From the NCBI GenBank assembly GCA_937860055.1, contig CALMBO010000010.1, positions 1 to 64,000 of the forward strand: 64,000 nt of DNA, in the 5' to 3' direction. Source of the DNA: an uncultured Verrucomicrobiota bacterium. GTDB lineage: Bacteria; Verrucomicrobiota; Kiritimatiellia; CAIQIC01; Lenti-01. Made by a program: the position numbers and the translations under genes. Shown piece by piece: positions 56,997-58,261 of the stretch (the stretch's first letter is position 1; each line of letters opens with the position of its first letter). The notes under the pieces are model-generated. The model saw only the letters and a program-made list of their open reading frames with translations. It had not been told where the DNA came from and searched no databases.

Positions 56997-57355
56997 GGCG
57001 GTTTCCTTGTTTGGGTTCTGCGTTCTGTAATTCGGGCGGACATCATAGACGGCCGGGCGGTGAAAAATCAACCAGAACCCATGGTTTTTCGCGCCGCCGG
57101 GGCGAAGCGTTTTATCGGGCGGGCGGGCCATGGATCATGAGGCGCCCTCGCGTTTTCCTAAATCCGTGCTTGCGGGGAGGGGGGCGGGGGCGTAGATTCG
57201 GCCGCATGTTTGTCCGGGAAAGCGTAGGACATTGCGACGGACGGTTGCATGCATCGGGGAGGGAACCACGGAATCGGGGAGGGGATGGTTTCGGATTGCG
57301 GCCGCGGCAGAAGTCGTCCCGGGACAACGAGTAGAAAAGAAGGATGGAAGTTCGA
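56997..57355. other. Divergent intergenic region, no gene
   Basis: About 359 bases between the start of serC (minus) and that of the NYN-like gene (plus). It is GC-rich and holds no ORF with a good ribosome site. AAGGAA precedes the serC ATG and GGAAG the gene at 57356. I cannot pick out a promoter with confidence; both leaders must start here. Confidence 0.45.
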
Positions 57356-58045
57356 ATGAGCTTCATGGAGAAGATCAAGTCGATGCTTTTCACGCCTGTA
57401 GGCGGGGCCGCCAAGCGGAACACCCGCGCCTACGTGGTGGACGGAGCCCGGCTGGTGGATGAGAAGACAGGGCGGCGCATGGCGCCGCGCGATCAGGTGC
57501 AGATGCTGAACGCGCTCTCGCGCGTGGCGAAACAGGAAGGCCTGGAGATCCAAGCGGTGTTTGAAAGCGACCGCCCTCTGCGCGAGGTGGAGCACGGCGG
57601 CGAATTCAACGGCGTGAAGGTGTTTTTCGCGCCGGACAACGAGCAGCTGGTGGCGATGGCCCTGAAGCTGTGCAAGAGCTCCGGCAGCGCGCTGGTGAGC
57701 TCCGGCGTGACCATGGAAAGCCGGGCGACGGAAGCCGGCATTCCGGTGCTGTGCAGCAGCACGTTCCGCAAGGCGTTCCTGCAGGGTGGCCTGCCGGGCG
57801 GCGATCGGGGCGGCGACCGCGGGGATCGCGGCGGAGACCGGGATCGTCGTCGTGGCCGGGACCGCCGGCGCGACCGGGGCGACCGGGGCGACCGCGGGGG
57901 GAACCGTCCGCCGCGCGAGGGCGAGCAAGGGCAGTCGGGCGAAGGGTCCGAATCCCAGGCTCCGTCGGAAGGCGGAAGCGGAGAATCGCAGGCGCCGAAG
58001 GAAGACAACAGTTCGGTTCGCAACCTGATCGACCTGGTGGAATAG
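57356..58045 (+). CDS. PIN/NYN-like domain protein with Arg/Asp/Gly-rich tail
   Basis: 229 aa from the ATG at 57356 (GGAAG 5 nt upstream); ATGs at 57344 and 57365 are alternatives. Residues 23-142 look like a PIN/NYN-like fold: AYVVDGARLV (Asp29), a helix NALSRVAKQEGLEIQAVFESD, VKVFFAPDN (Asp94) and LVSSGVTMESRATEAGIPVL where the usual T-x-D would lie. The last catalytic acid is missing, so nuclease activity is doubtful. The next 50 or so residues are repeats of GGDRGDRGGDRDRR type, a charged RGG-like tail, then Ser/Glu-rich and ending NLIDLVE. A likely RNA-binding protein. No near relative is recognised. A terminator follows. Confidence 0.6.
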   Translation: MSFMEKIKSMLFTPVGGAAKRNTRAYVVDGARLVDEKTGRRMAPRDQVQMLNALSRVAKQEGLEIQAVFESDRPLREVEHGGEFNGVKVFFAPDNEQLVAMALKLCKSSGSALVSSGVTMESRATEAGIPVLCSSTFRKAFLQGGLPGGDRGGDRGDRGGDRDRRRGRDRRRDRGDRGDRGGNRPPREGEQGQSGEGSESQAPSEGGSGESQAPKEDNSSVRNLIDLVE

Positions 58046-58062
58046 TCCGTCAGGCGATACGG

Positions 58063-58091
58063 AGGCCGAGGCGAAAGCCTCGGCCTTTTTT
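58063..58091 (+). terminator. Intrinsic terminator with GAAA loop
   Basis: AGGCCGAGGC (58063-58072), a GAAA tetraloop and GCCTCGGCCT (58077-58086) followed by T's to 58091. It lies 18 nt after the stop of the PIN/NYN-like gene and is a classic terminator. Confidence 0.9.
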
Positions 58092-58132: not shown

Positions 58133-58261
58133 ACCATCCCGCATATTATAATATGCGGGATGGTGGTTTTCAGGGAATGGCGCATGGAAATACGCAAATT
58201 TCCTTGAGAATCGGGATTCCACCGGTTGGCGGAGTCCCGCATATTATAATATCCGGGACTC
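58133..58261. repeat. Two long palindromes with CCCGCATATTATAATATGCGGG core
   Basis: The first, 58133-58164, is a perfect 32-nt palindrome (half-site ACCATCCCGCATATTA). The second, 58232-58261, is a 30-nt palindrome with one mismatched pair (half-site GAGTCCCGCATATTA). They share the core CCCGCATATTATAATAT but have different outer flanks, and the flank bases match within each palindrome, which suggests that flank and core were copied together or are under pairing constraint. They stand in the convergent gap with no gene. Confidence 0.8.

Follow-up and report, generated by a model that had tools for sequence, protein, structure and literature searches.

On balance, we lean toward reading the protein encoded at positions 57356–58045 of the window, the whole stretch of 64,000 nucleotides analyzed here, as a class-restricted offshoot of Rae1/YacP that is not a nuclease in this lineage and that would serve as an adaptor between RNA and a partner protein rather than as a cutter. 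What was computed is a predicted fold, kinship with YacP, the loss of two acids, an Arg-rich linker predicted to be disordered, a conserved C-terminal tip, and a single gene copy. A Rae1 fold without its acids, combined with an Arg-rich linker and a strongly selected tip, fits a protein that keeps hold of RNA while docking one partner. The features, in window coordinates, are as follows:

57356–58045, + strand: whole gene, 229 aa plus stop, supported by homologues
57359–57391, + strand: N-terminal amphipathic segment, residues 2–12 (SFMEKIKSMLF), with a low-confidence model helix at 3–12
57422–57790, + strand: NYN (Rae1/YacP-like) domain, residues 23–145, from profile matches, AlphaFold2, Foldseek, and VIA
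57440–57442, + strand: Asp29, the sole canonical acid kept (D in 74/82 members and in 18/18 canonical YacP proteins having a residue there)
57650–57652, + strand: Val99, at the place of the aspartate of canonical A-D-x-x-I-E (D in 19/19 canonical YacP)
57704–57706, + strand: Gly117, at the place of the aspartate of canonical T-x-D (D in 19/19 canonical YacP and 44/82 family members)
57791–58006, + strand: disordered Arg/Gly-rich linker, residues 146–217, from composition and predicted disorder in the AlphaFold2 model
58022–58042, + strand: conserved tip NLIDLVE, residues 223–229, from alignment, dN/dS, and motif scans
58061–58088, + strand: terminator-like hairpin with a T tract directly 3′ of the stop, from a consensus scan only

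The Gene and Its Relatives

The open reading frame noted in a preliminary description of this DNA is genuine; it encodes 229 residues. An in-frame ATG is also present at 57344, with an ATG in the same place in loci L081, L099, and L100; we set the start at 57356 because most homologues begin with M(S/G)(F/L) at that point. The gene is present as a single copy in the window's genome (3.05 Mb). Of 56 genomes spanning the ranks between genus and class, 42, with the window's genome among them, have a homologue, one apiece; plasmids gave no match. The preliminary description knew of no described bacterial family of this build, and indeed no Pfam or NCBIfam model matches the window protein; the search for relatives that it had called for showed that the domain recurs in the 82 genomes compared and that 75 of 76 complete members have the tip, which is beyond chance. 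In pairwise comparisons within the genus (six members, 15 pairs), the median dN/dS is 0.082/0.570 in the domain and 0.038/0.420 in the tip, against 0.358/0.844 in the linker.

Fold and Phylogenetic Position of the Domain

A compact PIN/NYN-like domain, first proposed from the letters alone, was borne out by the AlphaFold2 model, by Foldseek, and by VIA-align. In the model of the full window protein, block means of pLDDT lie between 82 and 97 across residues 21–140, whereas most of the tail has low pLDDT and the tip falls below 50; the fold should be read with two caveats, the 13 sequences used as input and the position of the window protein itself outside the Pfam model. The domain of a distant member, L085, was modeled with a mean pLDDT of 83.6. 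Foldseek returned the Rae1 structure 5mq9 as the best match of the window model (E 4.8e-4), and VIA-align against Rae1/YacP gave the window model a Z of 12.9 (rmsd 2.7 Å over 114 residues) and the L085 domain one of 13.7 (rmsd 3.7 over 121), the next best being Protein-only RNase P (Z at most 9.1) and unrelated rows reaching at most 7.8. Rae1/YacP therefore came first in the comparison with NYN/YacP that had been suggested earlier, and no other fold emerged.

At the sequence level, the Pfam model NYN_YacP was matched at E values up to 1 by 24 of 35 members (best 1.4e-9), the window protein being without a match, and a profile–profile comparison of the family with the YacP proteins of the class gave a probability of 98% (E 1.9e-13). 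Profile matches to the designed proteins 6wvs and 2l69 were also obtained, which we judged to be chance. In a tree of 101 rows, a branch with an SH-aLRT of 100 splits the 82 members from 19 YacP proteins, the tree being a quick one made from few columns, in which 44 of 98 inner branches are open. By these comparisons, the family is a separate clade beside canonical YacP, to which it is related.

The Active Site

To examine the catalytic positions, we placed 19 canonical YacP proteins and the 82 members of the family in one alignment. Asp29 is kept in the window protein, as had been noted from the start, and the acid of T-x-D is missing as described, its place being occupied by S115-S116-G117. 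The assignment of Asp94 as second catalytic acid did not survive the alignment: the canonical Asp (19/19 YacP) aligns with Val99, while column 94 is variable, with D in only 16 of 82 members. Because the canonical second Asp falls on Val99, two acids have been lost rather than one. More broadly, R47, D70, D99, and D117 are identical in all 19 YacP proteins and are replaced in the window protein by Q, E, V, and G, respectively. Judged from this alignment, the active site of the window protein is damaged, with two canonical acids lost.

The loss is uneven across the family. The full set of three acids persists in 11 of 82 members, so that some relatives may still cut; six of these belong to f2 and three to f15, the others being L031 and L117. 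Here only D, and no E, was accepted, in column 29, in column 99 or 100, and in column 117. The third acid is missing from all 15 members compared from the window's own family (f1). By parsimony, the tree requires at least 2 changes of the first acid, 7 of the second, and 11 of the third. Several domain residues are near constant and specific to the protein family, namely P44 (75/82), E61 (80), L75 (74), V89 (76), E121 (77), T136 (78), and K139 (72, plus 8 R), among which E61 and E121, near invariant, might belong to a modified active site.

These residues give some substance to the view that the protein is still an endoribonuclease, with a remodeled site built from D29 together with E61, E121, and others and aimed by tail and tip: D29, E61, and E121 are held in 74, 80, and 77 of 82 members, and the canonical triad persists in 11. 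Such a site would nevertheless have to work in the window protein without four residues that no canonical YacP in the alignment lacks, and in a group, f1, in which the third acid is gone from 15 of 15 members, with several losses across the protein family by parsimony. We therefore consider a remodeled nuclease rather unlikely.

The C-Terminal Tip

The NLIDLVE end pointed out in the preliminary description is indeed present at residues 223–229, and it is the best-conserved part outside the domain, found in 75 of 76 complete members, a count that leaves aside six ORFs cut by contig ends. Its pattern is (hydrophobic, once E)-(I/V)-D-(L, P and others)-(V/L/I). The D is present in 75 of 75 tips, although its codon varies (GAT in 48, GAC in 27). 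In 69 of the 75 the tip ends at most two residues from the C-terminus; in the other six (f2: L016–L020 and L023) a Pro/Ala-rich extension of 32–46 residues follows, so a position at the very end of the chain is not essential to the tip. The pattern was found in 0 of 19 YacP proteins, 0 of 255 other ORFs, and a fraction of 0.0004 of shuffles; the regular expression had been widened after reading members, and on 40 complete members fetched later it matched 39. The one complete member without a tip is L135 (167 aa, f21), in which a frameshift or a true loss is possible; the f21 members L037, L111, L114, L118, and L124 keep it. The tip is also kept in L134, L137, and L138, whose linkers are poor in Arg; it is thus not merely a charge partner of the RGG tail, and its persistence in these three argues for a target of its own.

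Two spellings, LIDLV(E/D) and LIDPL, were scanned genome-wide in 149 genomes of the class. LIDLV(E/D) followed by a stop gave 35 matches versus 7 for a reversed-pattern control: 29 at family genes, 2 at apparent cut-off family ends (L166 and L169), 2 ending in TGG rather than a stop (one of them classed without fetching its locus), and 2 closing ORFs of 24 and 22 aa. This commonest form of the tip was not found on any other long ORF in the 149 genomes. LIDPL plus stop showed no enrichment in the same genomes (21 matches versus 42 in the control), 9 of the matches lying at family genes as judged from their reading or their place, 6 ending in TGG, and 6 closing other ORFs, of 6, 9, 14, 40, 91, and 505 aa. 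As known motifs, the beta-clamp and clathrin-box ligands were considered for the tip and dropped, since key residues of these motifs are missing.

Genomic Surroundings

The gene stands alone between two genes on the opposite strand, which we take from their sequences to be serC and the gene of an ABC-type permease. We surveyed the neighbors by tblastn at 31 loci in 29 genomes and found none common to all of these loci. serC adjoins the gene in 5 of 10 f1 genomes and in 0 of 19 others. A phosphoribosyltransferase (PF00156) lies 0.26–1.26 kb downstream in six genomes of several families (loci L084, L085, L087, L091, L094, and L102), facing the gene in five; a CpXC protein lies at most 0.35 kb upstream in three genomes and farther away in three more (PF14353 in the two scanned); and SpoU-type RNA methyltransferases of two kinds occur 0.35–5.7 kb from the gene in four genomes. 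Nearly all of these recurrent neighbors are on the opposite strand, so no operon is seen, and they point to no clear function. Because rae1 of B. subtilis is reported to be cotranscribed with the methyltransferase gene yacO (PMC6613710), the SpoU neighbors are a weak hint of a link with translation.

Beyond the hairpin, a 22-bp palindrome, CCCGCATATTATAATATGCGGG, occurs in two copies (58138–58159 and 58236–58257), one of them with one mismatch. Allowing up to two mismatches, the genome contains 19 sites of the CCCGCATATTATAATATGCGGG type, and the control gave none. Pairs 77–98 bp apart account for 14 of these sites, and the palindrome has the look of a small repeat element that is dispersed.

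Tip and surroundings both bear on the idea that the protein is part of a degradosome built around RNase E/G or RNase Y. The genome does encode RNase E/G as well as RNase Y, yet the recurrent neighbors identified include no decay enzymes, the scanned LIDLV(E/D) form is shared with no other long ORFs in the 149 class genomes, and no tie between the protein and either RNase was found in this analysis; we regard degradosome membership as unlikely.

Linker and N-Terminal Segment

The long charged tail is real: the linker (residues 146–217) contains 16 R, 19 G, 10 D, and 1 K among 72 residues, with three RGG. The "many GDRGGDR units" ascribed to it were overstated, the exact unit occurring only twice, although GDR occurs six times. 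Whether relatives conserve the tail has a divided answer. Arg richness is conserved, with at least 10% Arg in 72 of 75 linkers and an Arg:Lys ratio of 830:152 in linkers versus 878:590 in the domain; RGG repeats are not, since only 32 of 75 members have even one and 5 have three or more. Linker length ranges from 31 to 104 aa across the family.

Tip and linker together might make a self-regulated RNA-condensing protein, comparable to Bacteroides Rho, which short motifs in its intrinsically disordered region are reported to control (PMC13269538). In favor of this are the Arg richness of the linker, its low hydrophobicity, and its disorder in the model. Against this stand the free variation of the linker in both length and sequence (dN 0.358) and the persistence of the tip beside Arg-poor linkers, and we hold condensation to be decidedly unlikely.

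At the other end of the protein, positions 3, 4, and 7 are hydrophobic in 74, 71, and 67 of 79 members. The hydrophobic moment of these N-terminal segments lies above that of their own shuffles, with a median percentile of 0.86 over 71 distinct segments, a value that ignores kinship and uses starts chosen by script.

Distribution and Co-occurrence with Canonical YacP

A profile of 35 members was searched against 387 genomes of the phylum and matched 95 of them at 1e-3. Every match at or below 4.3e-10 (69 in all) is within the window's class, probably Kiritimatiellae, while those outside it are weaker (1.4e-9 and up), and the ten of these that were fetched (L156–L165) are short and carry the acids of canonical YacP. 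With a cut-off of 1e-9, the family is present, with a single match each, in 80 of the 149 genomes of the class that have a completeness of 90% or more. In the other 69 it did not reach 1e-9, perhaps partly through divergence; it is thus no requirement for membership of the class. A search profile built from seven YacP proteins of the class matched 69 of the 149 genomes at 1e-10, a low-scoring part of the matches being counted without individual inspection. Both proteins occur in 52 genomes, the family only in 28, YacP only in 16, and neither in 53, a YacP match in G053 that overlaps the family gene having been left out of the count. All 9 f1 genomes have this protein and none of the 9 yielded a canonical YacP, and the window's own genome gave no NYN_YacP match. 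The seven class YacP proteins that were aligned (L147, L148, L150–L153, and L155) share a C-terminal motif, LGD-x-F, which suggests that canonical YacP of the class also has a C-terminal docking piece.

A scheme in which the protein and another PIN/NYN nuclease make up a full active site between them, in the way reported for SMG6 and the SMG5 PIN domain (PMC12923823), would agree with the loss of some but not all acids and with the presence of canonical YacP in 52 of 80 family-bearing genomes, but it is highly improbable here, because with no YacP found in f1 or in the window's genome there is no known partner of the PIN/NYN kind.

A Possible Mechanism

Under the adaptor reading that we prefer, the NYN domain and the Arg-rich linker would hold RNA, perhaps on or near ribosomes like Rae1, which is reported to be a ribosome-associated A-site endoribonuclease (PMC8266666, PMC6613710). 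The tip would dock one specific protein, the N-terminal amphipathic segment may provide an extra anchor, to the membrane or to something else, and the protein would in this way bring RNA and partner together. A bolder version, which we find rather unlikely, extends this to a large part of the class: a pseudo-Rae1 adaptor acting on the ribosome side, whose cutting activity was lost in many lineages and whose tip recruits a dedicated decay or translation factor, as an independent bacterial counterpart of the way Nmd4 is built for nonsense-mediated decay.

Comparison with Known Systems

The closest known system is Rae1/YacP (PF05991 NYN_YacP; PDB 5mq8 and 5mq9), with which the protein has in common the NYN fold, the first acid, and sequence similarity at the family level. 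It differs in that the window protein is without D99 and D117, in that the family lies outside the canonical YacP clade, and in the addition of an N-terminal segment, an Arg-rich linker, and a LIDLVE tip. The seven aligned YacP proteins of the class end in LGD-x-F, whereas the family ends in a LIDLVE-type tip.

Eukaryotic RGG-box RNA-binding proteins possess an Arg/Gly-rich tail. The window linker resembles it in its three RGG and in its disorder in the model, but across the family it is Arg richness that is conserved, not RGG.

What is new is a window protein without a Pfam or NCBIfam model of its own; the NYN fold was known before, and so was the concept of an adaptor of the pseudo-PIN type. 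Searches of one open-access library yielded no description of such a family, and no paper that links Kiritimatiell- with an NYN domain, or Rae1 with a pseudonuclease. We know of no degenerate PIN adaptors in bacteria. The conserved tip makes the function directly testable, through whatever binds NLIDLVE.

The nearest likeness of build is with yeast Nmd4, a PIN domain without a catalytic aspartate whose C-terminal arm is described as binding Upf1 (PMC11463774). The two proteins share a PIN domain missing a catalytic aspartate and a conserved C-terminal segment, the partner contact being, in the published account, a feature of Nmd4. Foldseek also returned the Nmd4 chain 8rdd (E 0.012, prob 0.84), which the fold alone could explain, and we take the likeness as one of build, not as evidence of kinship. 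Degenerate PIN adaptors have been described in eukaryotic decay, Nmd4 being the example reported (PMC11463774).
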